DNA of 64,000 nt, from contig NZ_FOMI01000010.1 of assembly GCF_900112595.1 (NCBI RefSeq), forward strand, positions 62,001 through 126,000. Reading direction: 5' to 3'. The notes under the pieces were generated by a model. It was not told the origin of the DNA. It was given only the letters and a program-made list of their open reading frames with translations, and did not search any database. The position numbers and the translations under genes were made by a program. Position 1 is the stretch's first letter. Every line of letters begins with the position of its first letter. Source of the stretch: Algibacter pectinivorans (GTDB taxonomy: Bacteria; Bacteroidota; Bacteroidia; Flavobacteriales; Flavobacteriaceae). Shown here one piece after another: positions 36,172-62,586 of this stretch.

Positions 36172-36204
36172 TTTTAAAATTTAATTGTTATTATTTATAT
36201 TTAA

Positions 36205-37977: not shown

Positions 37978-37988
37978 AGTGTTATATT

Positions 37989-39334: not shown

Positions 39335-42300
39335 TTTTTTGCTCTTTTAAGTTGAATTTCAGATTTCCAGCTATATAATACAGGAACTACAAATAGGGTT
39401 ATTAAGGCTATAAGCATTCCTCCAAAGCTTGGTATTGCCATTGGAATCATAATATCGCTTCCTCGTCCTGTAGAGGTTAATACTGGCAATAATGCTAGAA
39501 TGGTTGTAGCTGTAGTCATTAAACAAGGCCTGATTCGTTTTTCTCCAGCTTCTACTATGGACGTTCTAATTTCCTTTTTATTTTCTGGTGTATTTCTATT
39601 AAAAGTTTGTGTTAAATACGTTGCCATTACTACACCATCATCTGTTGCAATACCAAAGAGAGCAATAAACCCAACCCAAACCGCTACACTTAAATTAATG
39701 GGGTGCATTTGGAATAAATCACGCAGATTTTCGCCAGCGACATTGAAGTTTAAAAACCAATCTTGACCATAGAGCCATATCATTACAAATCCACCTGCGA
39801 ACGCTACTGCGATACCTGTAAACACCATTAATGATGTGCCAACAGAACGGAATTGGAAATACAGTATTAAAAAGATAATTGCCAATGCTAACGGTACAAC
39901 AACAGATAGCGTTTGTTCTGCTCGTAACTGATTTTCATACGTTCCTGTGAATGCATAGTTGATTCCTTTTGGAACTATTAATTCGCCTGAATCTATCTTT
40001 TCTTGAATCAATGCTTGTGCATTTTCAACAACGCTTACTTCTGCAAAACCATCTAATTTATCAAACAAGACATAACCTACTAAAAAGGTGTCTTCACTTT
40101 TAATGACTTGTGGCCCTTGTTCGTAACGAATGGTTGCTAATTCGCTTAATGGAACAGGACTGCCTTTTTCAACTGGCACATAAATCTGTTGTAAGTCTGT
40201 TGGATTTGCTCGTAATTCTCTTGGGTATCGCACACGAACACCATATCGCTCACGCCCCTCGACTGTTTGGGTTAAAACCATACCACCAACAGCTACTTTT
40301 AATACGTTTTGCACCTCTTCAATACTTACACCATAACGTGCTATTTTTTCTCTATCAATATCAATTAATAAATAGGGTTTACCAACGATACGGTCTGCAA
40401 AAACAGCTTCCTTTTTAATGCCTTCGGCTTCCTTGATAATGTTTTCTAATTGCACTCCAAACGCTTCAATTTGCTTTAAGTCTTGACCTTTAACTTTAAT
40501 TCCCATAGGTGCTCGCATTCCTGTTTGAAGCATTACCAATCGGGTTTCAATAGGTTGTAGCTTTGGTGCTGAAGTAACACCTGGCAATTTGGTGACTCTT
40601 ACAATTTCATTCCAAATATCGTCTGGTGATTCAATTTCTGGTCGCCAATTACGGTAGTATTCGCCATCATCATTTTCGATTAGTTGAGAACTTTGGATAT
40701 TTAATAAAGTTGATTTGATTATCGCTTTATTCTCTACCGATCTTGTGCTTAGCGTAGTCGAAATGCTCGAACTGACCTCTATATTTTCGTTATGAATTAA
40801 TCGACCATCTTTTAATTCAAACAAACCATCCTCATTTACTTTGTAACGTTGCCTTTCTCCATGTGCATTCAACATATATTCTGATTTATACTGAATAATG
40901 TTCTCGTACATTGATAAAGGTGCTGGGTCTAAAGCTGATTCTGTTCTACCTGCCTTACCGACTACCGTTTTAATTTCTGGAATACTGGCTACTGCCATAT
41001 CTAATTGCTGTAAAACTCGTTTATTTTCTTCTACGCCAGAATGCGGCATTGAGGTTGGCATTAGCAGAAATGAGCCTTCATTTAATGATGGCATAAACTC
41101 CTTGCCAGTATTCTTCATAATGAAAAAACCTGCAATTACAATAGCTGTTGGTACAGATAAAAACAATAATTTATTATCTAAACACCACCTTAAAATACGT
41201 GTGTAGTATTTGATGAATAGCGAAAAACCCCCTAATAAACCAAAGCATATAACACTTACAAAAATGAGATTCCAGAAAATACTTTTATCAACGCCTAATG
41301 GTCTCCAATATTCGGCTAGCAGGAATATGATTGCTGATGCTGAAATAATAATATTGATAAAATTAGTTTGTTTGTCTGTTACCTTATTTTGAAGATTGAG
41401 AAGTGCTGGAATTCCAAAAGCTATCAAAATCAATCCCAACCAACACCCATATACTATTGTTATGATTCCTAATGCTATTAAAACACCGTTTAAGGCATAT
41501 TTAAAATGTTTTTGAATACTCTTTTTTCGGAATAAAAAGGCCGCAAATGGCGGTATTAAAAATAAAGCGACAATAATAGATGCCGTTAACGCAAAGGTTT
41601 TTGTGAAGGCTAATGGTCTAAACAATTTTCCTTCTGCACCAATCATAGTAAATACAGGAATGAAACTGATTATGGTTGTCATTACTGCGGTAACGATTGC
41701 ACCAGATACTTCTGCTGTGGAGTTATAAACTACTGTATTAATGGATTGTGTTCCATCATCTTCATCCAAATGCCTAATAATGTTTTCTGAAAGTATGACA
41801 CCAACATCAACCATGGTACCAATAGCAATTGCAATACCAGATAATGCGACAATGTTTGCATCTACACCAAAGAACTTCATAGCTATAAACACCATTAAAA
41901 CCGCAACTGGTAGTAGTCCAGATATAAGTACCGATGCCCGAAGATTAAATACCATAATGATAATGACCAAAATGGTAATTAGTATCTCTAATGTTAAGGC
42001 TTCATTAAGTGTACCTAACGTTTCTTTAATTAATTCTGTTCTATCATAAAATGGCACTATGGTTACTTGTGATGTTCTTCCATCGTCTAATACTTTGGAA
42101 GGTAATCCTGCGCTTAATTCGTTAATTTTCTCTTTTACGTTATTGATAACTTCCATAGGGTTTGCTCCGTAACGAGCTACCACAACAGCACCTACAACTT
42201 CTGCACCTTCTTTATCTAATAAGCCACGTCGTGTTGCTGGACCTAAAGAGACTTTTCCAATATCTTTGATTCGTATTACTGTATAATCTTCGGAAGTTAC

Positions 42301-43095
42301 GACTGCGTTCTCTATGTCAGATATAGACTTGACATACCCTAAACCACGCACTAAATATTCTGCATTATTGATTTCAATAGTTTGTGCGCCAATGTCTTTG
42401 TTACTTTCTTTAACTGCTTTCACTACATGATGCAATTCAATATTATATTGACGCATCAATTCTGGATTAACATCAACTTGGTATTCCTGAACATAACCAC
42501 CAATAGAAGCGACTTCAGAAACGCCACTTGCAGACGATAAAGCGTATTTAACATAATAGTCTTGTATACTTCGTAATTCATGTAAATCCCAACCACCAGT
42601 AACGTTTCCGTTTTCATCACGTCCTTCAAGTGTGTACCAGAATATTTGTCCTAATCCTGTGGCATCTGGACCCAAAGCAGGATTAACACCTTCAGGTAAT
42701 AATCCACTTGGTAATGAGTTTAGTTTTTCCAGAATACGACTACGACTCCAATAGAATTCTACATCTTCTTCCAAAATGATATAGATACTTGAAAAGCCAA
42801 ACATAGACGAACTACGAATGGTTTTTACTCCAGGTATACCGAGTAAAGATGTCGTTAATGGATAAGTAATTTGGTCTTCGATATCTTGTGGCGAACGACC
42901 ACCCCACTTTGTAAATACAATTTGTTGGTTTTCACCTATATCGGGTATGGCATCTACAGCTACAGGATTGCTTGGTAAAAATCCTGAATCCCAATTGAAA
43001 GGTGCATTTACCGTTCCCCATCCTACGAAAAGGACGAGTAGTAGTACCGCAACGAGTTTATTCTCGATAAGAAATTTGATTGCTTTATTAAGCAT
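39331..43095 (-). CDS. cusA: CusA/CzcA family heavy-metal efflux RND transporter
   Basis: A 1254-residue inner-membrane pump, longer than E. coli CusA (about 1050). The first membrane helix is at residues 9-27. The porter domain has KWGGRSPQDIEDQITYPL and IRSSSMFGFSSIYIILEE, typical of the HME group. IAIAIGTMVDVGVILSENIIRHL carries the helix-4 aspartate of the proton relay. The extra length comes mainly from a membrane-rich insert (about 520-640) and a loop rich in charged residues (about 735-830), which are usual in the Bacteroidota version. It exports Cu(I)/Ag(I) or another divalent metal with CusB and CusC; metal choice is inferred from the companion genes. Confidence 0.93.
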   Translation of the reverse strand: MLNKAIKFLIENKLVAVLLLVLFVGWGTVNAPFNWDSGFLPSNPVAVDAIPDIGENQQIVFTKWGGRSPQDIEDQITYPLTTSLLGIPGVKTIRSSSMFGFSSIYIILEEDVEFYWSRSRILEKLNSLPSGLLPEGVNPALGPDATGLGQIFWYTLEGRDENGNVTGGWDLHELRSIQDYYVKYALSSASGVSEVASIGGYVQEYQVDVNPELMRQYNIELHHVVKAVKESNKDIGAQTIEINNAEYLVRGLGYVKSISDIENAVVTSEDYTVIRIKDIGKVSLGPATRRGLLDKEGAEVVGAVVVARYGANPMEVINNVKEKINELSAGLPSKVLDDGRTSQVTIVPFYDRTELIKETLGTLNEALTLEILITILVIIIMVFNLRASVLISGLLPVAVLMVFIAMKFFGVDANIVALSGIAIAIGTMVDVGVILSENIIRHLDEDDGTQSINTVVYNSTAEVSGAIVTAVMTTIISFIPVFTMIGAEGKLFRPLAFTKTFALTASIIVALFLIPPFAAFLFRKKSIQKHFKYALNGVLIALGIITIVYGCWLGLILIAFGIPALLNLQNKVTDKQTNFINIIISASAIIFLLAEYWRPLGVDKSIFWNLIFVSVICFGLLGGFSLFIKYYTRILRWCLDNKLLFLSVPTAIVIAGFFIMKNTGKEFMPSLNEGSFLLMPTSMPHSGVEENKRVLQQLDMAVASIPEIKTVVGKAGRTESALDPAPLSMYENIIQYKSEYMLNAHGERQRYKVNEDGLFELKDGRLIHNENIEVSSSISTTLSTRSVENKAIIKSTLLNIQSSQLIENDDGEYYRNWRPEIESPDDIWNEIVRVTKLPGVTSAPKLQPIETRLVMLQTGMRAPMGIKVKGQDLKQIEAFGVQLENIIKEAEGIKKEAVFADRIVGKPYLLIDIDREKIARYGVSIEEVQNVLKVAVGGMVLTQTVEGRERYGVRVRYPRELRANPTDLQQIYVPVEKGSPVPLSELATIRYEQGPQVIKSEDTFLVGYVLFDKLDGFAEVSVVENAQALIQEKIDSGELIVPKGINYAFTGTYENQLRAEQTLSVVVPLALAIIFLILYFQFRSVGTSLMVFTGIAVAFAGGFVMIWLYGQDWFLNFNVAGENLRDLFQMHPINLSVAVWVGFIALFGIATDDGVVMATYLTQTFNRNTPENKKEIRTSIVEAGEKRIRPCLMTTATTILALLPVLTSTGRGSDIMIPMAIPSFGGMLIALITLFVVPVLYSWKSEIQLKRAKK

Positions 43096-43155
43096 ATAGT
43101 TTGATTATTAAACGGTTAGACATTGGCATTTAAAAAATACCGCATACTAGAAATT

Positions 43156-43174
43156 ACCCTTAGGGTACAAACCC
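43156..43174. promoter_or_regulatory. Overlapping palindromes upstream of cusA
   Basis: ACCCTTAGGGT (43156-43166) is a 5+1+5 palindrome and GGGTACAAACCC (43163-43174) a 4+4+4 one; the two share GGGT. They sit in the 108-bp gap between the HYC_CC_PP gene and cusA and stand out as G/C-rich in AT-rich DNA. They could be a metal-regulator site or alternative RNA hairpins; no regulator gene is adjacent. Confidence 0.35.
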
Positions 43175-43203
43175 ATAGGATAAAACAGTCTATTGTTTAA
43201 AAA

Positions 43204-43617
43204 TCAAATTAAATAAGTCTCGCCTATTTTGTAGAGTTGCCTAATAACGAGTGGCGGTTTGTACTCTTCGTAAGAAGATACTTTTTTTTCTAAACCTTCA
43301 AAAAGGTTGATATATGTGTAAACAAATGAAGCAATGAATATCTGTTGTTCAAATGAATTTTTGTCAACTTGTAATTGTAGTTCGTCTTGACCATCAATAA
43401 CTAATTGTTCTTCATCGCAACAATTTTTCTTGGTAATTGAGCAACCATCAGCAGAAGGTATTTCCTTTTCCATACCACAACCTCTAGCTTTATTAAAAAT
43501 AGCAGTTTCTACTAAAGTATCTCCACAATAATGCATATTAAAAGTAAATGACATTGTAGAGAATAACACTACAAAAGCCATTAAGAAAGACATTATTTTA
43601 TGGAATACTTGTTTCAT
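43204..43617 (-). CDS. HYC_CC_PP family small exported protein
   Basis: A 137-residue protein with an N-terminal membrane or signal helix (about 8-27). It carries the three motifs that name the family, in order: NMHYCGD (HYC, residue about 30), KNCCDEE (CC, about 66) and EYKPPLV (PP, about 118), plus a further pair of cysteines (GCGME, DGCSI). The family is common in Bacteroidota next to Cus-type pumps. Cysteine and histidine positions suggest copper or other soft-metal binding in the periplasm. It lies 108 bp upstream of cusA on the same strand and is probably the first gene of this efflux locus. Confidence 0.82.
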   Translation of the reverse strand: MKQVFHKIMSFLMAFVVLFSTMSFTFNMHYCGDTLVETAIFNKARGCGMEKEIPSADGCSITKKNCCDEEQLVIDGQDELQLQVDKNSFEQQIFIASFVYTYINLFEGLEKKVSSYEEYKPPLVIRQLYKIGETYLI

Positions 43618-43840: not shown

Positions 43841-43874
43841 TCAAATAAAACCGACGACCAAAATGCCGCCGGTT
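43841..43874 (-). terminator. Intrinsic terminator of the sigma-linked SusC/SusD operon
   Basis: Minus strand: AACCGGCGGC pairs with GTCGTCGGTT over 10 bp (two G-U pairs) around an ATTTTG loop, then TTATTTGA. It begins about 50 nt after the stop of the DUF3347 gene and is unusually G/C-rich for the region. Confidence 0.62.
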
Positions 43875-43926
43875 AAAAAGACTAATTCACTTTTATAATT
43901 TATTTGACAACTATTTTACTAAACTA

Positions 43927-44448
43927 TTATATACTTGCCTTGACTTTCCCGCAAGCCAGCATATTTTTGGGGTAGTATGGATTTTTTATTTCTTTACTGT
44001 TGCTTACCCAAGTAGCGCCAGTCATTGGACATATTTGTTGATGTAATACAACATTAGCTGCTTTTAGTTTTTCTGCAATTTCCCAAAATTTTATAGAAAG
44101 GTTTTTAAAAAACTTACGCTGATTATTTATGTTTGTAGTTTTAGCTAACTGAGACGCTAATCCAATAAGTTCTGTTCTTGTTTTTGTAGCTTGATTCATT
44201 TGATCTAAAGTTAACTTTTTGAATTTAAACAGACTTAGAGCTTTTTTAAATTCTATAGAATGAGATATTGCTCCTTTACTATCGGACCTTAATAGATCTT
44301 CCTTTATTTTCAAATAATTATCTGTAATTTCCTGTTTAAGTATTTCTCTTTTTTCCGCCAAATCCTTAGAAACTTCCTGACTTGAAGATAATTGAGCCTG
44401 TGAGTAACTGCATATACCTAAAGCAAAGGCTATTAGTAAATTTTTCAT
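43927..44448 (-). CDS. Free-standing DUF3347-type secreted protein, probable copper binder
   Basis: A 173-residue protein with a signal peptide (1-18, ending YSQAQ). The C-terminal third (HQQICPMTGATWVSNSKEI, then NPYYPKNMLACGKV) matches the end of the CusB protein encoded 6 kb away (FCSMADNNNGAYW, NPYFGNAMLNCGEI), so it is a stand-alone copy of that domain. The helical first part agrees with the DUF3347 fold. The conserved cysteine-proline-methionine and methionine-leucine-x-cysteine motifs are plausible Cu(I) ligands. Its start overlaps the zincin stop by 4 bp (ATGA), making it the last gene of a SusC/SusD operon. That links this uptake operon to metal handling; the partner is not known. 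Confidence 0.75.
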   Translation of the reverse strand: MKNLLIAFALGICSYSQAQLSSSQEVSKDLAEKREILKQEITDNYLKIKEDLLRSDSKGAISHSIEFKKALSLFKFKKLTLDQMNQATKTRTELIGLASQLAKTTNINNQRKFFKNLSIKFWEIAEKLKAANVVLHQQICPMTGATWVSNSKEIKNPYYPKNMLACGKVKASI

Positions 44449-46874
44449 ATTGTTTTATTGATTGTTTTATTAATTTTTTCAATTTCTATTAAAATAAGCT
44501 CTAAATGAGATTTATTGATACCCTTCTCTCCTTTTATTAAGCTATTAACTGATTTTTTAAGTTCCAAAAGGTGTTCTCTTCCATATAAAACAACATCACT
44601 TCGCTGGGCTGCTGTTAATAATTTCCCTGGGGTTGGCACGAGTAATGTTTCCATTTTTTCAATATAGCTGTTCTGAAGGCTTCGTCGGTAATAATCAGAT
44701 TTTTCATCACCATTAAATTTTGCCCATACTGTTTCTTGTAAATCATTTAAAAACTCTGGAACAGTATAAGCTTCATCGTATTGAATCGATTTCTGACTTA
44801 AATTATAAAGCATACCTGGGCTCAATAACATTAATAGAACCTGATTTTGTTCTGCTGAGATTTGCTCACTTGTTTTTAAAGGAATTAATTGATCTATTTC
44901 CTTTGGATACATCCACAAAGGTGCCTCAAATAACTGTCTTCCTAAGTAATCAATGACTTTTTTAACCTTTTCCTTGGGTATGCCTTGATATACCGCTCCG
45001 CTTTGATCTACTGTTTTCTTTGTTATGTAATCGTTTCCAATGTATTTTAAAACATGATACAAATATGTTCGATATTGTTTTACTACTACTTTGTGCATAT
45101 CGGACAGGTTATTATATGCATCGTTTGGTTCGTAGGTCCAATCTATTAAATTCTCTACAACCCGCTTAAGGTTTTTAATCCCATAATCACTGGCCAATAC
45201 CGCGTCATCGCCAAGGTCTTCCTTTTGGCTTAGCGGATTTCTATCTTTTCCTTCGCCTGCGAACCATAATTTAGGATTGTTAGTTAAAGCTTCTGTAGTC
45301 ATTTTTAACAACATGTCTTCTTCCTGAAACTCATCTTTAGCGTTTGGATAGAAGCCATATCCCCATTTAATAGCCCATTTATCGTAAATACCTATTCTAG
45401 GATATATCCCTATAGGGCTAATACTATCTTCAGGTTGAGCCACGTAATTAAAGCGCGCATAATCCATTATTGAAACGGTATGCCCATTAGCTTCAACCCA
45501 TTCCTTGTCCCTAAGCTTTTCTACTGGTGTTGCAATACTAGCCCCCATGTTATGGCGTAAACCAATAGTATGACCTATTTCATGCGAAGACACAAATCGA
45601 ATTAATTGCCCCATAACCTCATCATCTAAATGCATTTTTCTTGCTCTAGGATCGATAGGTCCAGCTTGTACCATATACCACTGCTGAACGAGTTTCATTA
45701 CATTGTGATACCAACCTACATGACTTTCAATAATTTCTCCACTTCGAGGGTCACTTATTCTTGGCCCATAAGCATTAGGAGTTTCGGATGAGTAATACCT
45801 AACTACCGAATAGCGCGCATCTTCTAGACTCATTGTAGGATCGTCTTCTGGCCACTCTTTTCCTATAATAGCATTTTTAAACCCAGCAGCTTCAAAAGCT
45901 ATCTGCCAATCATTAATCCCCGCTATTAAATAAGGCCTCCACTTTTTTGGTGTTGCAGGATCTATATAATATACTATTTGTTTCTTTGGCTCTACTAGCT
46001 CGCCTCTAAGATACTTTTCTATATCTTCTTCCTTAGGCTCTAAACGGTAACGCTGAACAATATGTTTTGATTCAACTCGCTGCTGTTCATCGGAAAACAG
46101 CACATATTTATTAGCAAAATACCCAACACGCTCATCAAAAAACCGTTTGCGCATAGGAACTTTTGGTAACAACACGATAGATGTATTCATTCTAAGCGTA
46201 ATACTTCCTACCGAAGACAAGGATTTTTTAAAGGTTTTAATGGTTTTAACCTCAATATTAATAGCATAAACTTTTATATCTTCAATAAAAGACCTATCGT
46301 TTGCCAGCGATGATAATTTATTATCTGTCTTCTCTTTGTTTGATAATGAAAATACAGGGTTATCTTTTTTAAAGGCATTAGTTACCTCAATAACAATATT
46401 ACCTGTTAACGGATTGATTGACTTTATTGGGAAGGATTCAATTATTGGATTTTCGTTGCTTACTGCCAATGCTTTAGCTAACATGGCATCTTTAGAACGT
46501 ACATCCTGCTTATACTGTAAAGCTCTTAAAAAAACATTGTTATTATTCCCTTTTTCGAAATAAATAGTTTGTTCATTAGCCTTTTCTCCTCCAAAACGCC
46601 CCATACCTACTGGGGTTGATAGATATCTTGTTACCACCAACATATATCGATTAAATAAACTATCTGGTATTTGAAAGTACAACTTCTCGTCAACCTTACT
46701 AACAGAAAACAAACCAGCTTTAGTCAAGGAATCGTTACTTATTAATTTACTGTAAGATTCAATACCTTTTTGTTGCGTGGTATCGATCTTTTTGTTTTGG
46801 TCTGTTTGTGCCGTTAGGCACTGTTGTCCTGAAATAACCAGGATTAGTAATATATATACTAACTTGTTACTCAT
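44445..46874 (-). CDS. Large secreted zinc-dependent metalloprotease, DUF5117/DUF4953 type
   Basis: An 809-residue exported protease with a signal peptide (about 1-23). The N-terminus has a DUF5118-like segment (SLTKAGLFSVSKVDEKLYFQIP) and a DUF5117-like region (about 100-290, YFEKGNNNNVFLRALQY, RYRLEPKEEDIEKYLRGE). HEIGHTIGLRHNMG (residue about 430) is the HExxHxxGxxH zinc site, and SIMDYARFNYVAQP provides the Met-turn. The C-terminal helical part matches DUF4953. Substrates of this group are not established. The gene begins 2 bp after susD, so it is an integral operon member, and its export predicts cleavage of a peptide or protein at the surface or in the periplasm. Confidence 0.85.
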   Translation of the reverse strand: MSNKLVYILLILVISGQQCLTAQTDQNKKIDTTQQKGIESYSKLISNDSLTKAGLFSVSKVDEKLYFQIPDSLFNRYMLVVTRYLSTPVGMGRFGGEKANEQTIYFEKGNNNNVFLRALQYKQDVRSKDAMLAKALAVSNENPIIESFPIKSINPLTGNIVIEVTNAFKKDNPVFSLSNKEKTDNKLSSLANDRSFIEDIKVYAINIEVKTIKTFKKSLSSVGSITLRMNTSIVLLPKVPMRKRFFDERVGYFANKYVLFSDEQQRVESKHIVQRYRLEPKEEDIEKYLRGELVEPKKQIVYYIDPATPKKWRPYLIAGINDWQIAFEAAGFKNAIIGKEWPEDDPTMSLEDARYSVVRYYSSETPNAYGPRISDPRSGEIIESHVGWYHNVMKLVQQWYMVQAGPIDPRARKMHLDDEVMGQLIRFVSSHEIGHTIGLRHNMGASIATPVEKLRDKEWVEANGHTVSIMDYARFNYVAQPEDSISPIGIYPRIGIYDKWAIKWGYGFYPNAKDEFQEEDMLLKMTTEALTNNPKLWFAGEGKDRNPLSQKEDLGDDAVLASDYGIKNLKRVVENLIDWTYEPNDAYNNLSDMHKVVVKQYRTYLYHVLKYIGNDYITKKTVDQSGAVYQGIPKEKVKKVIDYLGRQLFEAPLWMYPKEIDQLIPLKTSEQISAEQNQVLLMLLSPGMLYNLSQKSIQYDEAYTVPEFLNDLQETVWAKFNGDEKSDYYRRSLQNSYIEKMETLLVPTPGKLLTAAQRSDVVLYGREHLLELKKSVNSLIKGEKGINKSHLELILIEIEKINKTINKTI

Positions 46875-46876
46875 AA

Positions 46877-48301
46877 TTAAAATGGTACTTTTTCGTTTGT
46901 ATTTAAAGTAAGATTTGGGTTTTTAGTTAACGCAGCTAAAGGGAATGGAATAATATATAATCTAGAATCTGGTTTTAAAACGTAGGTTTCCTGCGGAACG
47001 GTTTGATTCACAATAGGAAATACACGGGCTATGGTTTTAGCATACTCGGGTTCGTTGTTAAATCGTTTAAGATCGAAAAAACGATGAAACCCAAAAAGCA
47101 ACTCTTTTCTACGTTCGTTTATAATGAGCTCCATGGTCTCTTTTCTTGTTGAAGGCACTTGCAAATCTGTTGTTTCTGAGAGTATTCGTTTGGCTCTCAA
47201 AGTGTTCAATATATCAATAGCATCACTCAATTTATTTTCTCTAGCATAACACTCTGCAAGCATTAAATATACTTCGGTAGTTTTCATGCCTACCGTGGGG
47301 TTGAAGTATTTATTGTAGCGTACATTCCAATATGCAGTATTAGATCCTTGATCTAAAAATGAAGTTGATGTTGAATTAAAAAACAAATTAAAGCGAGCAT
47401 CGTCATCTCCAAAAAGGTTAACTAACTCGGGGCTAATAATAGAAATGAACGCAAAATTCATCTCGGTATATCCAGACATGTACATATAGCTTAATACTTC
47501 TACATTATCTTCTGCAGGCACGGAAACCTCATTTGGACCTCCCTGTTCATGATAAGCTACTAAATCAAATATTTGATTGTTATAGCTAAGCGACTCTTCA
47601 GCAGCTTGTTTTGCTTCTGTTACCTCTCTTTTAAACAAATGCACCTTAGCTTTAAATGCATAGGCCAAAGCTAAAGACGGATGATAAACATCTAGCGGAA
47701 CTTCTTCTAAGTATGGTAGAGCTTCTTCAATATCTCTTTGTATAAAATCATAAACCTCTGCTACAGTTGATTTTTTAGGTTGTGCTTCCAAATCAAATTT
47801 ATCCATAATACAGATCCCTCCATCTGTTGCGGCCGTATTTGGGTCATAGGCTTTAGCATAAGTGTTTACCAATAGAAAATGGTCGAAGGCTCGGTAAATT
47901 TTAGCTTCGGCTTTTGCTAATTGTTTGGTGTAGCCATCTCCTTCACTTTCATCTACTAAAGAAATAATTGTATTCCATCTATTGATATATGAGTATGCTT
48001 GATTATAAAAACTTGAATTTTTAAGTAAAGACACTCTATCCGTAGTTTCGTCAAAAGTAAAATTAATGATATCAATGTTTGGTGTTTGCCCTATTACATT
48101 TGACTCTCTCATCCATTGATCATCTGATAGGTATTGAAAATTATTTACTGGATATGCTCTATTTGGTAGAGATACCATTTTATGAAAATCTGAAGCAGTT
48201 TCTATTACTAACGCTCCTTTTGGCGTAATATCTGTATAATCTTCACAGGAAGATATTGCTAATAATAATATCGAAAAAATAAATTTATATATAGGTTTCA
48301 T
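46877..48301 (-). CDS. SusD/RagB family outer membrane lipoprotein
   Basis: A 474-residue SusD homologue. The lipobox AISSC puts the lipid at about residue 19, followed by EDYTDITPKGALVIETASDF, a normal RagB start. TPR-type helices (KQLAKAEAKIYRAFDHFLLVNTYAKAYDP) and the C-terminal VYLMLAECYARENKLSDAIDILNTLRAKR and ERRKELLFGFHRFFDLKRF segments are signature regions. It begins 5 bp after susC. It should form the lid of the SusC channel and bind the ligand made or released by the co-encoded zincin. Sequence does not tell the ligand. Confidence 0.92.
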   Translation of the reverse strand: MKPIYKFIFSILLLAISSCEDYTDITPKGALVIETASDFHKMVSLPNRAYPVNNFQYLSDDQWMRESNVIGQTPNIDIINFTFDETTDRVSLLKNSSFYNQAYSYINRWNTIISLVDESEGDGYTKQLAKAEAKIYRAFDHFLLVNTYAKAYDPNTAATDGGICIMDKFDLEAQPKKSTVAEVYDFIQRDIEEALPYLEEVPLDVYHPSLALAYAFKAKVHLFKREVTEAKQAAEESLSYNNQIFDLVAYHEQGGPNEVSVPAEDNVEVLSYMYMSGYTEMNFAFISIISPELVNLFGDDDARFNLFFNSTSTSFLDQGSNTAYWNVRYNKYFNPTVGMKTTEVYLMLAECYARENKLSDAIDILNTLRAKRILSETTDLQVPSTRKETMELIINERRKELLFGFHRFFDLKRFNNEPEYAKTIARVFPIVNQTVPQETYVLKPDSRLYIIPFPLAALTKNPNLTLNTNEKVPF

Positions 48302-48306
48302 AGCTA

Positions 48307-51300
48307 TTAAATATTAAGGTTAAGACCGAATAAAAAAGTTTTAGGCAATGGTATACTTCGTGTACCGGTATTGAACGAGTATGCCTCTGGATCAATACCA
48401 TTTCCTGCCGCACTCCAATTCCAAAGGTTATTAATTTGAAATGTCATTTTAGCAGCTGACAACTTAATTTTTTTTGTAATATCTTCTGGAAGATTATAAG
48501 CTAATGAAATGTTTCTTAGTTTTACATAATCACCTTTAATCACATTTACATCAGAATTTATCCATTGGTTACTAATAGTACTTGCATTATTTCTTATGCT
48601 TTCATCAAAATCTACGAATAAACGTGTATTGTTGTTTCTTTGAGAATCAGTATAGCGATCCACTATTCTCTTGTCATTAAGGTCATCAGAGTTTAAGGCT
48701 AAAACATCACTTCGCATAACATTACCTCCAGAGAAAACAAACAAAAAATTTAAATCTAATTGTTTATATGAAAATCTTTGTGAAAAGGAACCTGTATATT
48801 TTGGTAGTAAGCTCCCCATATTTACAAGTGCTTCTGGGTTTGTTATTGTTTTAATACTATCAGGCAAAGGATTTCCTTCATCATCAAAAGTTATTGACGG
48901 TTCTCCATTTTCATCTAGAGCATAAGGATATCCATTAGTAACTCCTCCATGTTTATAAGCATACAAACTGTTATAGGTTTCTCCCTCTATAAAATAATCT
49001 AAAGGAGAACCTACATAAACAAACGCATCAGATGGTTCTCTAGTAACCTTATCTACAGTTGTTTCGTTAAAACTAAATACTAAGTTAGACCCCATTTTAA
49101 AATCTCCTTTACTGTACCAATCAGAACCAATACTTAACTCTATTCCTTTGTTAAGCAGTGCACCTGCATTGATTCTTCTTGTTAAAGCTCCAACAGTAGG
49201 GTCTAAATCAGTGGTTGTTAACAAGTCTGAACTATACTTACGATAAACATCTATACTTCCTCGTAATTTACTTTGCAGCACGCTAAAATCTAACCCCAAA
49301 TTTGTAGTTTCAGTTTTCTCCCATCTTAACTTTGGGTTTGGTTGGGTAGTAATATCAATATATTCTAATGATCTATATAGTCTATCATTTCTCCACCTAG
49401 CGATAATATTTGGAGTTGTAGACTGGTCTACCACCCCTGTATAACCATGAGTCGCTCTTAGTTTTAGAGAATTAACCCAACTCATCTTTTCCATAAAATT
49501 CTCGTTAGTAATATTCCAACCTACACCAACAGACCACAATGGACGATTTTTATATTTTGAATCTACCCCAAATAAATCGGCTCTATCAACTCGGTAACTA
49601 CCCGTTAAATTATATTTAGACAACAAGGTATAGTTAACGGAACTGTAAACTGAAAAATAGCGATGTAATATTTCCTGTTGCACAGTAGAAAGCGCGGACA
49701 ATGTTTTGTTACGCCCATAAATGTAACTTGGAACACCTGTTTCACTAAGGTCTTGTGTATTTAATGTATTATACGTTAATGTTACGGGATTATATCCATA
49801 ATTTAAGCTTTCAACACTTCTTGGAACAAAAGTTTCACGCATTTCAAAACCAGCTATAGCGCTAACAAAATGCTTGCCTTCACCAAATTCTTGACTAAAA
49901 TCTAGTTGATTCCTAAAAGAATGGTTCCTTGCTTGCCTTGTAGATTGCCTATAACGCCCGCCTTCAGAAAAACCATCTAAATAACTGTAAACATCATTAT
50001 TGGGGTTATACTCTGTTAAAGTATTTATAGCATAACGCATTTTATAGGAATCCTGCTCATAATATTGATCGGTATCTGTTCTCACAGCTTCATGTTGAAA
50101 TTGAGAGCTAAGGCTAAGTCCTTTCCTTAATTTCAATCTTAGTTTAGCAAATGCTCTTAAGTTTAATGATTTCCTTTGTGTTATCCCTTCTTGAAGGGCT
50201 TGTAAAACATTAAATGTTACTGGGTTAAAACCACTTAAACCAGCTATTTGAGAGGCAACAATTGGGTTAATTTCACTGCTTGAAGTAAAACCGTCACTAA
50301 TACCTACAAATGGAGACATAACAAGATTGCCATTTTCATCTGTAATTCGTTCATATCGTTTTTGGATATTAAAATCCCCAAAACTTGAATCTGTAATGTC
50401 TGCATTTCTAATAGTTCCATTAACCCCAACGGTAACATCTAAATTATTGTTTACTTTATAACTGCTTTTTGCATAAAGATTAAAGGATTGATTGGAATTA
50501 TACTTTATTCGATTGTCAGTATGGTCATAATTGAACGAAACATAGGTGTTTTGCCTACTAGAACCTCCCGAAAAAGAGATGTTGTAACGTTTTCTGAATT
50601 CATCTTTCCAAACGTTATCTCTATAATCTTTTATGTAATCATTATTTCTCCATTGTGAGGTCGTATTATCATAATCTGATTGAGATATGTTACCTTCTTC
50701 TAAATCTCTGTTTAATTGATATAAAGGGCTGTAATATAGTATTCTACTGCTGCCTATTTCTCCATAATTATCAAACATCGTGGCAATATCACCAAACCTA
50801 TTGCGCTCTCTACTGTAAACAGCTTGTTCAAAATCAATTATATCACTTGTAGAAGCATAATTTAAATCTTTAAGATTAGGTTTTGTTGAAACAAAATAAT
50901 CTGCATTAATACTAACTTTTAACTTCCCACGACCCTTTTTGGTTGTTAATACAATAATACCATTTGCAGCTCTTGAGCCGTAAATAGATGCGGCTGCAGC
51001 ATCTTTAAGAACGTTTACACTCTCTATGTCATAAGGATTAATTTGATCTAGGGTTAGCTCTGTGGGCAAACCATCAATTACAATTAGAGGACTATACCCA
51101 ACCTCAACTGAAGAAAATGTTCCAATACCACGCAAAATAGGTTTATCGGCAGATGCTCCAAATGGGTTTTTTTGATATAATAATCCTGCAACACGGCCTT
51201 CAATGGCTGTTAATAGATCTGAGTTAACACTTTGATTTAAAGTTTTTTGATCTACTTTAGAAACTGCTCCCGTTAAATGCTTTCTGCTTATTGTTTTATA

Positions 51301-51945
51301 CCCTGTTACTACAACTTCATCCATCTCTGTTATTTTCTCCTGAACAACAAGCGTTAGTTGAGTTTTTCCTTTTATTGGAAAATATTCTTTAGCTACAGTT
51401 AAACCTGAACATTCAATTACTCCATTGGAAGGCACATTTTCCATTAAAAAATTACCATCGAAATCGCTTGTACTAAACTTATTTGTCTCTAAAACGTGAA
51501 TAGTAACCCCCGGGAAGGGCTCATTATTAGTGTTTAAAATTTTACCTGTTACATTAATTAATTGAGCAGATAAATTTTCTGTTTTAGATGAAGTAACAAC
51601 AATTGTTGTATTGGTAAGTGTGTATTTTAAATTTTGATTTTTAAAGACTTCATTTAAAGCCTCTTTTAAGCCGACATTTTTAAGATTAATAGTTACTTTT
51701 TTTGATACTTTAAGCAATTTTTGAGTGTACAAAACTTCATAATCAGCTTGTCTTGCTAATTCTTTTAAAGCTTTTTCTAGAGTAACCTCATTAAAATTAA
51801 CTGTTACATTTTGAGCTTGAACTAAAACGCAAAAAAACAGCATAAAAGAAAAGGTAAAACCTTTTAAGTACCGAGATTCAATTATCCTAGAAATTTTCTT
51901 TCCAGGATTTAATTTAGGTATTTTACATTCTGAATTAATTTCCAT
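48307..51945 (-). CDS. SusC/RagA TonB-linked importer with STN signalling domain
   Basis: A TonB-dependent transporter of about 1212 residues. I place the start at 51945 (MEINSECKIPKL) because the signal helix (FSFMLFFCVLVQAQ) then sits at a normal distance; the longer frame from 52053 would add 36 cysteine-rich residues unlike a signal peptide. Mature residues begin with an STN domain (VNFNEVTLEKALKELARQADYEV), then a carboxypeptidase-regulatory-like domain (NVTGKILNTNNEPFPGVTI), the plug (ILRGIGTFSSVEVGYSPLIVIDG, LKDAAAASIYGSRAANGI) and the barrel. STN domains contact FecR anti-sigma proteins. The sigma/FecR pair just upstream therefore probably senses transport by this receptor and induces its operon. 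Confidence 0.91.
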   Translation of the reverse strand: MEINSECKIPKLNPGKKISRIIESRYLKGFTFSFMLFFCVLVQAQNVTVNFNEVTLEKALKELARQADYEVLYTQKLLKVSKKVTINLKNVGLKEALNEVFKNQNLKYTLTNTTIVVTSSKTENLSAQLINVTGKILNTNNEPFPGVTIHVLETNKFSTSDFDGNFLMENVPSNGVIECSGLTVAKEYFPIKGKTQLTLVVQEKITEMDEVVVTGYKTISRKHLTGAVSKVDQKTLNQSVNSDLLTAIEGRVAGLLYQKNPFGASADKPILRGIGTFSSVEVGYSPLIVIDGLPTELTLDQINPYDIESVNVLKDAAAASIYGSRAANGIIVLTTKKGRGKLKVSINADYFVSTKPNLKDLNYASTSDIIDFEQAVYSRERNRFGDIATMFDNYGEIGSSRILYYSPLYQLNRDLEEGNISQSDYDNTTSQWRNNDYIKDYRDNVWKDEFRKRYNISFSGGSSRQNTYVSFNYDHTDNRIKYNSNQSFNLYAKSSYKVNNNLDVTVGVNGTIRNADITDSSFGDFNIQKRYERITDENGNLVMSPFVGISDGFTSSSEINPIVASQIAGLSGFNPVTFNVLQALQEGITQRKSLNLRAFAKLRLKLRKGLSLSSQFQHEAVRTDTDQYYEQDSYKMRYAINTLTEYNPNNDVYSYLDGFSEGGRYRQSTRQARNHSFRNQLDFSQEFGEGKHFVSAIAGFEMRETFVPRSVESLNYGYNPVTLTYNTLNTQDLSETGVPSYIYGRNKTLSALSTVQQEILHRYFSVYSSVNYTLLSKYNLTGSYRVDRADLFGVDSKYKNRPLWSVGVGWNITNENFMEKMSWVNSLKLRATHGYTGVVDQSTTPNIIARWRNDRLYRSLEYIDITTQPNPKLRWEKTETTNLGLDFSVLQSKLRGSIDVYRKYSSDLLTTTDLDPTVGALTRRINAGALLNKGIELSIGSDWYSKGDFKMGSNLVFSFNETTVDKVTREPSDAFVYVGSPLDYFIEGETYNSLYAYKHGGVTNGYPYALDENGEPSITFDDEGNPLPDSIKTITNPEALVNMGSLLPKYTGSFSQRFSYKQLDLNFLFVFSGGNVMRSDVLALNSDDLNDKRIVDRYTDSQRNNNTRLFVDFDESIRNNASTISNQWINSDVNVIKGDYVKLRNISLAYNLPEDITKKIKLSAAKMTFQINNLWNWSAAGNGIDPEAYSFNTGTRSIPLPKTFLFGLNLNI

Positions 51946-52007
51946 ACATTTACTTGTGTTTTTAGTTAGACATTTGTGAAAAAATATACTAGCGACACAC
52001 CTATAAC

Positions 52008-52040
52008 AACCAGAGGCAATGCAACTGCTTCTGGTTTTTT
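52008..52040. promoter_or_regulatory. Hairpin in the susC leader
   Basis: AACCAGAGGCA and TGCTTCTGGTT pair over 11 bp (one G-U pair) around a 7-nt loop. Plus-strand T-run follows at 52037-52040; on the susC (minus) strand the hairpin is preceded by A-rich sequence and followed by GTTGTTATAGG. It lies 60-90 nt upstream of the susC start, between fecR and susC, so it may pause or stop part of the fecR transcript or act in the leader. Confidence 0.45.
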
Positions 52041-52076
52041 CATTGTGAGGCAATATAAACTAGCAAACTTCAGATT

Positions 52077-53216
52077 TTAAGGATACACAATAAGAGTATT
52101 CTTTTTAATCTCAAATTTTATATTATTAAGCTCAAGTACTTTTAATACTTCAGTTAAATTTTTATTCATAAAAGTTCCGCCATTAAATTTCAAATCAGGT
52201 ATATCTCCTTTATATTCCACCTGAATATCGTACCATCTTTCTAATTGTTTCATTACCATTTTTAAATCAGCATTATCAAACTTAAATCTTCCGTCTTTCC
52301 AAGCCATAGCAGATGCCGCATCGACATTGCTAACCAAAATAGAACTTGAGTTTTCGCTTACTTCAGCCTGTTGTCCTGGTCTTAAAATGGTTTTTTTATC
52401 TTTATAAGAAACGGCAACACTTCCTTCTAATAAGGTTGTTTTAGTAAAAGATTCATTGTTATAAGCATGCACATTAAAATGCGTTCCTAAAACTTCAATG
52501 ATTTGGTTTCTAAATTTCACAAAAAATGGTTTACTCTTATCTTTTGCTACTTCAAAATAAGCTTCTCCCTCCAGCTCAACTACTCTTTTATTTCCCTTAA
52601 AATGTGTTGGGTATTTTAATGTAGACATAGCATTTAAATACACTTTAGTACTGTCTGAAAGTATAACATTATACTGTCCTCCAACTGGAGTTGATAAGGT
52701 ATTAAAAGTATTTAAACCTCTATTATCTGTATAAGTATTAGGATTTACTACATACGAAACAAGTCCGTTAGAATTCATTTTAATGGTTACCCTTTCTTTC
52801 TCTCCTTCACTAATAATTGTATCTTTACCTACTATATTGGTTAAAACAATTTGCTTTCCATTAGATAGTGTTAATACGCCTTTGGTTCCTCCTGGGCGAA
52901 TTTCTTTTATTTCTTTTGCTAGCTCAACTCGAGAATCTACTGTTCTTGTAAAATAATATAATCCAGAAGCCAACATTAAAGCAACGGATGCTGCTACATA
53001 CAAACGTTTCCTTAAATTAACCACCTTAGTTTCTTGCTTAACAGGAACCTTATATTTTATATAATTAAAACTACTGTCTAACTGGTCTTTATTTAACCTC
53101 TTTTTGCTATTTGAAGCTTCAAATAAATACCACGCCTCTAGCTTATCTTTTTCATCATCAGATAAGGTTCCGCTCCTGTAATTCTTTAGTAAGGTTAAAA
53201 TTTCTAATTCTGTCAT
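52077..53216 (-). CDS. FecR family anti-sigma factor
   Basis: A 379-residue membrane anti-sigma factor. The N-terminal cytoplasmic part (about 1-68, EILTLLKNYRSGTLSDDEKDKLEAWY) binds the sigma factor; a single membrane helix (about 69-88, LYVAASVALMLASGLYYF) leads to the periplasmic FecR domain (about 105-290, FNTLSTPVGGQYNVILSDSTKVYLNA, VVELEGEAYFEVAKDKSKPF). The C-terminal DUF4974 domain (KFDNADLKMVMKQLERWYDIQV) resembles the STN fold and should receive the signal from the receptor. It lies 171 bp after the sigma gene and about 130 bp before susC, the standard cell-surface-signalling order. Confidence 0.92.
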   Translation of the reverse strand: MTELEILTLLKNYRSGTLSDDEKDKLEAWYLFEASNSKKRLNKDQLDSSFNYIKYKVPVKQETKVVNLRKRLYVAASVALMLASGLYYFTRTVDSRVELAKEIKEIRPGGTKGVLTLSNGKQIVLTNIVGKDTIISEGEKERVTIKMNSNGLVSYVVNPNTYTDNRGLNTFNTLSTPVGGQYNVILSDSTKVYLNAMSTLKYPTHFKGNKRVVELEGEAYFEVAKDKSKPFFVKFRNQIIEVLGTHFNVHAYNNESFTKTTLLEGSVAVSYKDKKTILRPGQQAEVSENSSSILVSNVDAASAMAWKDGRFKFDNADLKMVMKQLERWYDIQVEYKGDIPDLKFNGGTFMNKNLTEVLKVLELNNIKFEIKKNTLIVYP

Positions 53217-53387
53217 AATAAAAAAACAGTTTTATCCCTGTTTATATAAGTAAGACAGATAAAACCATGATTTGTCATAGACGAAATCAAAAAAAAGTTA
53301 AAAAATTATTACCTTTTTGTTAAATACTATTTTTTATATTGAAGATTAAACAAGTAATAAAACAATAAACGACACATAATGAGCAAA

Positions 53388-53963
53388 TTAAAACCTAAAC
53401 ATTAAAACAATTAAAAACGGATTTATTTTAGCCCTTATTTTTTTTAACGCATTATATACTTGTTGTTTGGCTGTTTTATCAGAAATATTTAATTGATTAG
53501 CTATTTCATCATAAGAAAAATGATCTATTTTTCTCAAAACGAAAATTTCCCGCATTTTATCAGGAAGAGATTCTATTTCTTTGGCAATCATAAGGCTTAA
53601 CTCCTCTTCTCTTTGATTAGCATCCGCAAAGGCGTAATTATTTTCTGTAAAATTTGAAATTGACTCCGCGTAACGAGAAACAACCTTTTCATGTGCGATA
53701 TGATTTAGTATTCTGTTTTTAGTTGCCTTATACAAATATGAAGATAGAGAGCCTTTAATATTTAATTCATTTCGTTTGTTCCATATAGCCAAAAAAACCT
53801 CCTGAACAATATCGTTTGCTTCATCCTGATTCTGCAAAATTTTATAGGCATGGTTTATTAAAAGTTTACAATACCTATTAAAAATTACAGTATAAGCCTG
53901 CTGATCATCCTCTTTAAGTAAATCTAATAGTAGCTTGTCTGGATATTTTTTATAAATAGGCAA
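53388..53963 (-). CDS. ECF RNA polymerase sigma factor, FecI/Bacteroidetes type
   Basis: A 191-residue ECF sigma-70 factor. Region 2 is clear (YTVIFNRYCKLLINHAYKILQNQDEANDIVQEVFLAIWNKR) and region 4 has LPDKMREIFVLRKIDHFSYDEIANQLNISDKTAKQQVYNALKKI, including its helix-turn-helix. The short hydrophobic tail (FLIVLMFRF) is common in this group. It should be held by the FecR protein encoded next and released when the STN-type SusC imports its ligand. Upstream lies a region of about 0.95 kb with no intact gene; a TAATTTTG box at 54051-54044 on the coding strand lies about 80 nt before the ATG but lacks a -33 partner. Confidence 0.93.
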   Translation of the reverse strand: MPIYKKYPDKLLLDLLKEDDQQAYTVIFNRYCKLLINHAYKILQNQDEANDIVQEVFLAIWNKRNELNIKGSLSSYLYKATKNRILNHIAHEKVVSRYAESISNFTENNYAFADANQREEELSLMIAKEIESLPDKMREIFVLRKIDHFSYDEIANQLNISDKTAKQQVYNALKKIRAKINPFLIVLMFRF

Positions 53964-54909
53964 AAAAAAGAAATAATTTTAGCCGTGTAATTTAAGAAAT
54001 AATTGTTTTAATCAAAACAAAAATCCGTATTTCAGGATTATTTCAAAATTAAAAGTTCATCGAAATACCCCGTTTATAGAGATTTGTTGAATAGACACTT
54101 TAGTCTAAAAAAAATTAATTAAAGTTTGCATATTTAGTATTGCCTTTATATTTTAAAAAAAAGTTAACTGTTACACGTTCCTTTATTGATCTATATAACA
54201 GACTCAATCTGTATTGAAATCTTTGAAGGCTATACATTCATATCACTGCACCTATATCTAAACAGTTTTGTTTTATCCAAAATAGCCTTTACAAACCCTT
54301 TACTATCTATTATCCTAAAGTCTTTCATCTTTTAGAATTCCCCAACAATGGTATAAAACTTATTGTTCAGAATCCTATCAAACAAGCCATTAATTCTCGG
54401 CATAATAAATTCTGTATTATTTTTTTTACTGTATTTTATAGAAAACTCAATTTCTACCTGTAAAACAGGTAATTCATTTGAATATACTTTTTTATAGAAC
54501 CCAAAAGGCTTTTCAATTCAATTATATAAGTTTTTAAAACGTAGCATTAGTAGTATTAAATTTTCCTTTGTCTTCAATTTAAAAGGGTTACTATCTATAA
54601 TGATAAAATCTATTACAAAAGGGTTATCGTTTCTATTAATGCTTCGTTAAATTTAAGAAACAAAGGACAACTGACTACAAAAAAGAGATAATAAAAACTT
54701 GTAAAACCAATAATAACAAGTAGTTATAAAACAAAAGAAAGATAATTACTTCCCAATACAATATGTAATCATTCCTTTAAACACTATGTCTGACAAGTTA
54801 TAAGGTGTAAATTAGGTGTAGTATTTTGTTTGTTATTGGTTGATTTACGTACTAATATCTAACTATTAGACTTGGTAAATACCATTAATTTTTTTTTAAA
54901 GAAAGAATA
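53964..54909. other. Long intergenic region between the sigma gene and the defence island
   Basis: About 950 bp without an intact gene. It contains a coding-like but broken reading frame at 54230-54646 and a short direct repeat, AAGGTGTA (54802-54809) and TAGGTGTA (54813-54820), 11 bp apart. It marks the boundary where the antitoxin/type I restriction genes begin, and could hold the scar of an insertion. No tRNA or integrase was seen. Confidence 0.5.
54230..54646 (-). pseudogene. Broken reading frame, unknown family
   Basis: One frame reads through 139 codons with only two in-frame stops, far fewer than noncoding AT-rich DNA usually gives. It contains protein-like stretches: RNDNPFVIDFIIIDSNPFKLK, then after a TGA LPVLQVEIEFSIKYSKKN and PRINGLFDRILNNKFYTIVG, and after a TAA MKDFRIIDSKGFVKAIL. 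I recognise no family. It may be the decayed remains of one gene, or the last part may be a tiny separate ORF. No start or promoter was assigned. Confidence 0.42.
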
Positions 54910-55560
54910 TCATAAAAATTCTTTATACTTCAGAATAATTTCTTGAAAATCATCCTTTATAAATTCCCAATGTTTGCCATTAAGGCAAATAGGATTAAAG
55001 TCTTCATCAGCTTGGTCAAAGGACGTGAAATTTTGGATAATTAAATCTCTATCGTGTGCATAAGGATATCTTTGCTTATGTAAATCGAACATTTGGCTAA
55101 TACCATAAGATTTATGCAAATCGTGTAAATCCCAAAAATCCTTTTTTCTTCCACCTCTTTGTACTACATCAACTTTCATTGCTATAATTTCCTCAATAGT
55201 TGCCATTCTTATATTATCAACTATAATATAGGGTTGAATGAAAGTGTCTGTGTAATATAAGTCAAGCTTTATTGTATGGTCTTTGTCCTCTCCAACAAAA
55301 TAGCTTTTTCCCATTGCTGGGCTTATATTTAAAAAATCTACATATTGAAAACTTTCTGTTAGATGTTTTTCAATGGCATCAAAATCTAATGTTCCATATT
55401 GCAAATCACTAAACAAGTCAATATCAATGGACTCTCTATGCCCAATTTGTAAACTCAATGCTGTACCACCTACCAATCTAAAATCATTAAACACATCGGA
55501 TTGCATTAATTTTAGTAAGCTATTTTTCAATAGTTCATTAACCGTATTATAATATAGCAT
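54910..55560 (-). CDS. AbiEii/AbiGii-type nucleotidyltransferase toxin
   Basis: A 216-residue nucleotidyltransferase of the AbiEii/AbiGii (DUF1814) family. RLVGGTALSLQIGHRESIDIDLF (residues 28-50) holds the GG[TS]AL..Q motif and the catalytic DxD pair that binds metal and NTP. A later KLDLY supplies another acidic residue and MKVDVVQRGGRKKDFWDLHDL is the family's third motif. Family toxins transfer nucleotides, with tRNA as target in the MenT relatives, and act in abortive phage defence. The gene's start shares one base with the stop of the HTH gene (TAATG), so the two form a toxin-antitoxin pair. Length is at the short end of the family. Confidence 0.88.
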   Translation of the reverse strand: MLYYNTVNELLKNSLLKLMQSDVFNDFRLVGGTALSLQIGHRESIDIDLFSDLQYGTLDFDAIEKHLTESFQYVDFLNISPAMGKSYFVGEDKDHTIKLDLYYTDTFIQPYIIVDNIRMATIEEIIAMKVDVVQRGGRKKDFWDLHDLHKSYGISQMFDLHKQRYPYAHDRDLIIQNFTSFDQADEDFNPICLNGKHWEFIKDDFQEIILKYKEFL

Positions 55561-56057
55561 TATACCTTTTCTTTGTTTCTATATATAGTGTAGGGTTTAC
55601 GAATACCTTGTGCAAGTGCTTCTTCAATTTTTTCATTGCTGTAAAAACGTTTAATTTCTTCTTTTTCAATGTCGTTTCCACGCTCAAATACACGTTTAAT
55701 AACTGCGACACTTTGCTTTTGCCAATCTATTTTAGAAATATCTGTATCCCAAAACAATGACCTTCTTAAAAGATTTAAGTTTGGGGTATTTTTTTCTAGT
55801 TTATTTTTTTCTTCCTTAATATCAAAATAGGTTTGTAGTAAGGCAAGTGTTCCCTCTTCTAGATTTAGTCTTTTTTCAATCTTTAAAGCTAGAGGCGTAT
55901 TCAGTTTTCGTTTGCCTTTGGAAATGGCATTAATTGTTTGAGGATATTCATCAATAGACAATGCAAAAGGGCGTTGAGAAATGCCTTTTTTATTTAGCAA
56001 GCGTTCCAAAATTATGCCTGGATGAATGCCTTTGTATTTGTCGATTAATGTGTTCAT
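55560..56057 (-). CDS. HTH antitoxin partner of the AbiEii-type toxin
   Basis: A 165-residue protein. Residues about 10-75 are a HigA-like helix-turn-helix (IHPGIILERLLNKKGISQRPFAL, EYPQTINAISKGKRKLNTPLALKIEKRL). The C-terminal half (LRRSLFWDTDISKIDWQKQSVAVIKRVFERGNDIEKEEI) looks like the DUF6922 type region often joined to AbiEii toxins in Bacteroidota. It probably neutralises the toxin and represses its own promoter; two palindromes overlap the promoter region. An exact -7 box only 5 bp before the ATG suggests a leaderless or very short-leader mRNA. It follows the type I restriction gene hsdR by 83 bp. Confidence 0.8.
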   Translation of the reverse strand: MNTLIDKYKGIHPGIILERLLNKKGISQRPFALSIDEYPQTINAISKGKRKLNTPLALKIEKRLNLEEGTLALLQTYFDIKEEKNKLEKNTPNLNLLRRSLFWDTDISKIDWQKQSVAVIKRVFERGNDIEKEEIKRFYSNEKIEEALAQGIRKPYTIYRNKEKV

Positions 56058-56058
56058 A

Positions 56059-56082
56059 TTACAAATGTAAACAATTTTGTTT
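56059..56082. promoter_or_regulatory. Palindromes and -7 box upstream of the antitoxin gene
   Basis: TTACAAATGTAA (56059-56070, 5+2+5) and AAACAATTTTGTTT (56069-56082, 6+2+6) abut, directly before the start codon. The minus-strand -7 match TACATTTG is at 56069-56062. Such paired sites fit repression by the HTH antitoxin. Confidence 0.45.
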
Positions 56083-56140
56083 ATATCATCACATTGTAAA
56101 TTTATTTAGGATTTGTATTTTCTTTATTTTAAGTTCAAAA

Positions 56141-59419: not shown

Positions 59420-59421
59420 AA

Positions 59422-60744: not shown

Positions 60745-60749
60745 ATTAT

Positions 60750-62555: not shown

Positions 62556-62580
62556 TATCTTATATAATTATATACTTTTG
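62549..62580 (+). promoter_or_regulatory. Perfect Bacteroidetes promoter match, antisense to the operon
   Basis: Plus-strand TTTG (62549-62552) and TACTTTTG (62573-62580) are exactly 20 bp apart, matching both boxes of the -33/-7 consensus. The -33 box overlaps the start of the HEPN gene. A short match can arise by chance in AT-rich DNA, but a plus-strand terminator follows 100 bp later. Confidence 0.5.
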
Positions 62581-62586
62581 TACTCT

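Follow-up and report, generated by a model that had tools for sequence, protein, structure and literature searches.

A conserved operon for a SusC/SusD-type importer, a zincin and a DUF3347 protein in Algibacter pectinivorans, with a probable role in peptide-type uptake

The stretch of DNA analysed here, 64,000 nucleotides of Algibacter pectinivorans contig NZ_FOMI01000010.1 (positions 62,001 to 126,000; hereafter, the window), carries a run of six minus-strand genes. As judged from open reading frame coordinates and Pfam matches, these encode, in the order of transcription, an extracytoplasmic function (ECF) sigma factor, a FecR regulator, a SusC-type transporter, a SusD-type lipoprotein, a zincin and a small DUF3347 protein (Table 1). 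The genes are tightly packed. The gap between susC and susD is 5 bp, that between susD and the zincin gene is 2 bp, and the zincin and DUF3347 genes overlap by 4 bp (ATGA), exactly the junctions given in an earlier, sequence-based description of the locus (hereafter, the original prediction). We conclude that the six-gene run is a real operon that is conserved across several Bacteroidota groups. The 10.3-kb segment at 43843-54102 of the window is 88% identical in DNA sequence to Algibacter pacificus; a tRNA gene, looked for as an island marker, is absent from the 64-kb window.

Table 1. Features of the operon and of the adjoining copper-efflux operon (window coordinates)
Feature	Position	Strand	Remarks
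ECF sigma-70 factor	53388..53963	-	191 aa from TTG, start uncertain; Sigma70_r2, r4_2
Near-palindromic element TTYGTCTATGACAAA	53271..53285	-	between sigma and fecR, 54 bp before fecR
FecR anti-sigma regulator	52077..53216	-	FecR + FecR_C (Pfam)
SusC/RagA TonB-dependent transporter, N-terminal STN	48307..51945	-	STN, CarbopepD_reg_2, Plug, barrel (Pfam)
SusD/RagB lipoprotein lid	46877..48301	-	SusD_RagB 7.2e-21, SusD-like_3 4.5e-20
DUF5118-DUF5117-DUF4953 met-zincin, predicted signal peptide	44445..46874	-	Pfam; HEIGHTIGLRHN at residues 431-442
DUF3347 protein, 173 aa, predicted signal peptide + helical bundle + Cys/Met tail	43927..44448	-	PF11827 6.9e-12
DUF3347 C-terminal tail, residues 140-167	43948..44031	-	conserved Cys/Met
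Copper-efflux operon, downstream on the operon's strand	35695-43617	-	HYC_CC_PP (NF047658), CusA-type RND (resistance-nodulation-division) pump, OEP, CusB, HMA protein

To describe the gene neighborhood of the zincin, 340 zincin relatives were collected from named genomes and the nearest 80 were kept; the fractions that follow apply to these nearest zincins only. Open reading frames around them were labelled by phmmer searches in which the proteins of the window served as queries. SusC and SusD genes were found upstream of the zincin gene in 71 of the 80 loci, and sigma and FecR genes were also recognised upstream in 69 (at one locus, L069, a probable sigma factor and FecR were missed by these labels). 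A DUF3347 gene was the next gene in 64 of the 80 loci, an arrangement far beyond chance, and the association of DUF3347, zincin and SusC/SusD genes that the original prediction had suspected is thereby borne out. All 64 belong to the 71 loci with SusC and SusD, versus none of the nine loci without them, although the sequence of one of these, L104, stops 199 bp past the zincin gene, so that a DUF3347 gene could be missed there. Complete operons, with sigma, FecR, SusC, SusD and zincin genes, numbered 69, and 63 of them had the DUF3347 gene. The form with DUF3347 is carried by Algibacter, Aestuariibaculum, Flavobacterium, Pedobacter, Sphingobacterium and one Capnocytophaga metagenome-assembled genome (MAG). 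Its zincin/DUF3347 junction is a 4-bp overlap in 41 of the 64 loci, and ranges from -8 to +56 bp. In a sample of 392 genomes from the phylum, the DUF3347 gene was adjacent in all nine genomes whose zincin is at least 74% identical; next to less similar zincins, none was found by eye among the matches listed. Co-occurrence in the same genome was rejected as evidence. DUF3347 is present in 141, and DUF4953 in 156, of 199 genomes of the family, and because both are so common, only adjacency is informative.

A tree of 80 zincins (the window and 79 of the 80 loci, with L102 left out; quick search, LG+G4) showed three changes in the presence of DUF3347. Rows that lack it inside the positive clade are L053 (Chryseobacterium balustinum), which has SusC, SusD and zincin genes and no recognised sigma or FecR gene, and L096/L097 (Capnocytophaga), which have the zincin gene and no recognised SusC/SusD pair. 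This pattern fits one gain of DUF3347 after the Chitinophaga branch, followed by two losses (L053; L096/L097), and suggests that the SusC/SusD-zincin core is the older part, to which DUF3347 was added and in which it was kept while the operon was whole. In L053, the next gene, 52 bp past the zincin gene, reads as an AraC-type regulator.

Presence in relatives is patchy. The only survey genome of the same genus (G044) gave a single, weaker match to the zincin, and the window DUF3347 protein has no close orthologue in it. Such a distribution, together with a single dedicated protease and an inducible importer, would suit a system for the breakdown of an imported antibacterial peptide, or another harmful polypeptide, rather than for nutrition. 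However, no immunity- or toxin-like gene is found among the six, and bringing a toxin into the periplasm by means of TonB would be costly. We regard this explanation as improbable.

The original prediction had also claimed that the sigma factor, FecR and an STN-type SusC form a sensing module, and Pfam confirmed all three domain sets in the window, where the STN domain was checked. This is the composition of a cell-surface signalling system. The sigma factor matches TIGR02985 with 141.9 bits (cut-off 126.4), and its start position is matched in four relatives, by TTG in two and by ATG in two. When the intergenic regions of 15 Flavobacteriaceae rows were aligned, 13 of them shared the core of TTYGTCTATGACAAA, CTATGACAAA. 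The alignments of the sigma-fecR region were made from hand-chosen rows (15 from Flavobacteriaceae, i.e., 14 loci and the window, and 12 from Pedobacter/Sphingobacterium), and the Pedobacter/Sphingobacterium rows have another conserved block at this position. An exact 13-mer of TTYGTCTATGACAAA is present in 11 of 105 loci, two of which are one identical place. When up to three mismatches were allowed, the 15-mer occurred nine times in the window versus 6.6 times expected, and so is not rarer than chance; a second copy, with one mismatch, lies within a restriction gene at 58145-58159. The 10-mer core occurs five times in the genome, versus 18 times for a reversed control. The tetranucleotide CGTC is present in the sigma-fecR region of the window and absent from that of most relatives. 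Since the frequency of the element is unremarkable in both the window and the genome, it is the conserved place that argues for an operator. TTYGTCTATGACAAA may be a candidate promoter or operator, perhaps the regulated promoter.

SusC matches TIGR04056 with 546.3 bits (cut-off 368.25) and more likely starts at the ATG at 51945 than at the listed TTG at 52053. SusD matches SusD_RagB with 75.5 bits (cut-off 23.1), and the two proteins form a proper SusC/SusD pair. The predicted lipid-bearing Cys19 of SusD is kept in all 65 rows from DUF3347-bearing operons. The zincin matches PF16313 with 353.8 bits (cut-off 24.2); NCBIfam offers no model for it. Its HExxHxxGxxHN motif is found in 80 of 80 zincin relatives, and S468-I-M470-D-Y is invariant in an alignment of 33 rows (A3; the window zincin and 32 of the 80 relatives). 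No lipobox was detected in 62 of 64 zincins by a regular expression, the one method applied, which fits a periplasmic site; a C-terminal domain of the type IX secretion system (T9SS) was not among the Pfam hits of the zincin. The zincin structural model has a mean predicted local distance difference test (pLDDT) score of 73.9, with low values near the active site, and gave no structural match at E <= 0.001. Neither the zincin nor the DUF3347 sequence had a meaningful match in the PDB.

SusC/SusD pairs are widely known for glycan import, and several of the nearest SusD structures bear carbohydrate-binding labels, as would be expected if the operon served the use of a glycan or glycopeptide in the manner of a standard polysaccharide utilization locus. 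Against this, none of the six proteins of the window operon is a carbohydrate-active enzyme by Pfam, and in the six-gene loci of the census only the named genes lie between sigma and DUF3347 (genes farther out were left unclassified). Glycan use therefore appears quite unlikely. Because the window operon has a protease and is without a glycan-active enzyme, a peptide is favoured over a glycan. The original prediction had proposed the uptake or processing of a metal-bound peptide rather than glycan use; its peptide part is supported, while its metal part can be called only plausible.

The DUF3347 protein matches PF11827 with 46.5 bits (cut-off 25.5). Residues C140, W147, S149, N156, P157, C166 and G167 of its tail are invariant in 65 of 65 operonic DUF3347 proteins, and M163 and M142 are kept in 64 and 63 of them, respectively. 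The protein aligns to the C-terminus of the CusB encoded next door (47 of 157 residues identical, E 2e-13), and the pattern C.M...W.S...NPY...ML.CG is common to both tails. This likeness had been noted in the original prediction and stands; the name "metal-binding" that was attached to the motifs derives from their conserved Cys and Met residues. We consider metal binding by the tail a plausible and good hypothesis, but no more than that. In a 47-row alignment (A2: the window protein, 42 of 64 operonic orthologues, DUF3347 proteins of the Flavobacterium loci L050 and L037, and CusB of the window and of A. pacificus, L026), all 47 members match PF11827 at E <= 0.01. The 173-residue protein is not itself a CusB, as Pfam finds in it DUF3347 only and no HlyD/CusB barrel-sandwich domain. 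An AlphaFold2 model of the protein (mean pLDDT 89.7) presents the domain, residues 41-129, as a helical bundle, with strands 136-139 and 168-172 flanking C140 and C166. A Foldseek search with this model returned nothing at E <= 0.001 (best E 0.38). VIA-align matched it to generic bundles, cytochrome b562-like and others, with Z up to 10.3 (for the cytochrome b562 variant 5yo3, Z 10.0, root-mean-square deviation (rmsd) 2.5, 94 residues aligned). For helical bundles the tool advises caution below a Z of about 13, and these matches may reflect a common arrangement only.

The gene order and its conservation, the intact zincin motif and the conserved tail are firm observations. As for function, we tentatively prefer, while putting its chance below an even one, surface-signalled uptake of a peptide-type ligand, its cleavage by a periplasmic zincin, and a DUF3347 partner that binds a thiol or Cu(I). 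The ligand, presumably a peptide, would be brought across the outer membrane on TonB energy by SusC and its SusD lid. By analogy with FecIRA-type systems, the STN domain of loaded SusC would pass a signal to FecR and on to the ECF sigma factor, which would induce the operon. The zincin would cut the ligand in what is probably the periplasm. The DUF3347 protein, whose gene overlaps that of the zincin, would be the zincin's periplasmic partner, and the Cys/Met tail of its helical bundle would bind whatever is laid bare by the cut; Cu(I) is the likeliest candidate, and a thiol the alternative.

Several observations weigh against this scheme. An enrichment in conserved Met, His and Cys was sought in SusC and SusD and not found; those that are conserved are mostly common to the Chitinophaga operons without DUF3347. 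The nearest solved SusC/SusD relatives, 8ypt and 8ypu, give no clue to the substrate. The Pfam DUF3347 match spans residues 41-129 and does not include the Cys/Met tail (residues 140-167), and a regular expression finds a possible lipobox in five of 64 DUF3347 proteins, so that the site of the protein may vary. A scan with nine query proteins of flanks of up to 10 kb, some of them on contigs that end soon past the operon, showed no counted copper gene beside 59 of 65 operons. Six full operons, five from Chitinophaga and one from a Chitinophagales MAG (L098), lack DUF3347 altogether. Finally, the Cys pair C108-C133 of the related Leptospira protein LIC13259 is reported to be joined in an intramolecular disulfide and to undergo exchange with the thiol of a partner (PMC13344006, a paper that nowhere mentions copper). 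With a spacing of 25, versus 26 for C140/C166, and a position in the matched range, this pair is probably equivalent to the one studied here.

The last two points would also suit plain oligopeptide uptake, in which the periplasmic zincin trims the peptide and DUF3347, without any metal, assists the protease (as a folding partner, inhibitor or docking factor), its two Cys residues forming a structural or exchangeable disulfide. In the model, the strands bordering C140 and C166 could bring both Cys residues near each other, and a Flavobacterium SusC/SusD pair has been proposed as an oligopeptide importer, with RagAB as precedent (PMC9723704, in the part of the text consulted). Yet plain uptake leaves unexplained the two near-invariant Met residues of the tail, as well as the association of DUF3347 with CusB-sized frames. 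We hold it to be a possible, though doubtful, alternative.

This association is seen in the 199 genomes of the family, where 84 of the 150 DUF3347 matches listed are in CusB-sized frames (at least 500 aa, judged by length only), and where, among the matches listed, 44 of 66 shorter DUF3347 frames have a CusB-sized one no more than 20 kb away. Copper genes that adjoin the operon itself are of two forms. A Cus operon, starting with the HYC_CC_PP gene, follows after 309 bp in the window and after 202 bp in A. pacificus; the CusB of the window carries C-terminal DUF3347 and HMBD domains, and the CusA there was named from sequence and a CusA label rather than from a family scan. The Cus operon was rejected as part of the unit, as it adjoins only these two of 65 operons. 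The second form, at four of 65 operons (L037, L050, L052 and L077, all Flavobacterium), is a downstream run that encodes a Cys-rich protein of 121-122 aa, a second DUF3347 protein and a multicopper oxidase. This second DUF3347 protein has, by reading, an N-terminal CxxC, and Pfam, run on L050, finds in it DUF3347 only. The four loci have one common layout and fall in two parts of the tree, and hence count as one or two events. Further flank matches, namely an RND pump frame on the opposite strand 7.6 kb off in L088 (290 bits to CusA), CusA-like fragments 9.2-9.6 kb off in L043 and L067, and a weak adaptor in L056, were left uncounted because other RND kinds also match.

Both the adjacent Cus operons and the multicopper oxidase neighbours would agree with copper-stress or copper-peptide sensing and detoxification, with the operon as the outer arm of Cus efflux. 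However, no copper gene was counted in the scanned flanks of most operons, import would be a strange way to detoxify, and none of the six proteins of the window operon is a copper regulator by Pfam. We therefore give this explanation little credence. In a bolder reading, the SusC/SusD pair would scavenge copper: copper-bound peptides, which are the cell's own or foreign copper carriers, would be imported, the zincin would destroy the peptide in the periplasm and so free Cu(I), DUF3347 would be its periplasmic acceptor, and the STN-FecR-sigma relay would sense the metal-peptide. We think this rather unlikely. If true, DUF3347 would have a part in import, and the system would be, to our knowledge, the first copper importer of the SusC/SusD type.

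Other parts of the window hold additional systems. Upstream of the operon, region 54910-63661 encodes an AbiEii nucleotidyltransferase with an HTH (helix-turn-helix)/DUF6922 partner, a helicase-type restriction subunit, a Methylase_S protein and an N6_Mtase protein, and likely combines a type I restriction system with a toxin-antitoxin pair that is type IV-like. Region 1779-14084 encodes a 2748-aa SprB-repeat protein with a CHU_C T9SS signal, a PorP/SprF protein and a second CHU_C protein. Another SusC/SusD pair, with no STN hit, lies at 22485-32706 and is followed by further genes, including one for an M1 peptidase-like protein; this is possibly a second peptide-type uptake cluster.

No function has been assigned to the families DUF3347, DUF5117, DUF5118 and DUF4953, and the conserved unit makes the roles of the importer, the protease and DUF3347 directly testable. 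In the open-licence literature searched, DUF3347 is named only in one unrelated paper, and DUF5117, DUF4953 and DUF5118 are not named; among the papers listed that link SusC/SusD or TonB with copper, no title or abstract opening describes such an operon. Bacterial copper acquisition is termed poorly characterised in the consulted part of PMC12914433. If the ligand carries copper, the TonB-dependent copper importers OprC, CrtA and MbnT treated there would be functional counterparts of the system; that part of the text mentions no SusD-type lid or zincin for them, and SusC is here without Met/His/Cys enrichment.

The DUF3347 protein resembles the Bacteroidota form of CusB in its helical DUF3347 domain and Cys/Met tail, but stands alone, at 173 aa, without membrane-fusion domains and in an import operon. 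Its residues 1-166 match the Leptospira LIC13259/LIC11441 family (NF047615) with 48.6 bits, below the curated cut-off of 100, which makes it a relative and not a member; all 47 members of A2 match this family at E <= 0.01, while the setting and biology of the Leptospira proteins are different. With RagAB, the oligopeptide importer of Porphyromonas gingivalis, the operon shares the SusC/SusD pair (E 1.6e-44 to RagA and a weak 4e-4 to RagB). 8ypt/8ypu are closer, however, and the operon adds the zincin, DUF3347 and its own STN-FecR-sigma sensing; it is the zincin that suggests peptide import of the RagAB kind here. Finally, the operon is like FecI-FecR-FecA in having an ECF sigma factor, FecR and an STN-bearing outer-membrane transporter in the same order, but its transporter is a SusC with a SusD lid.

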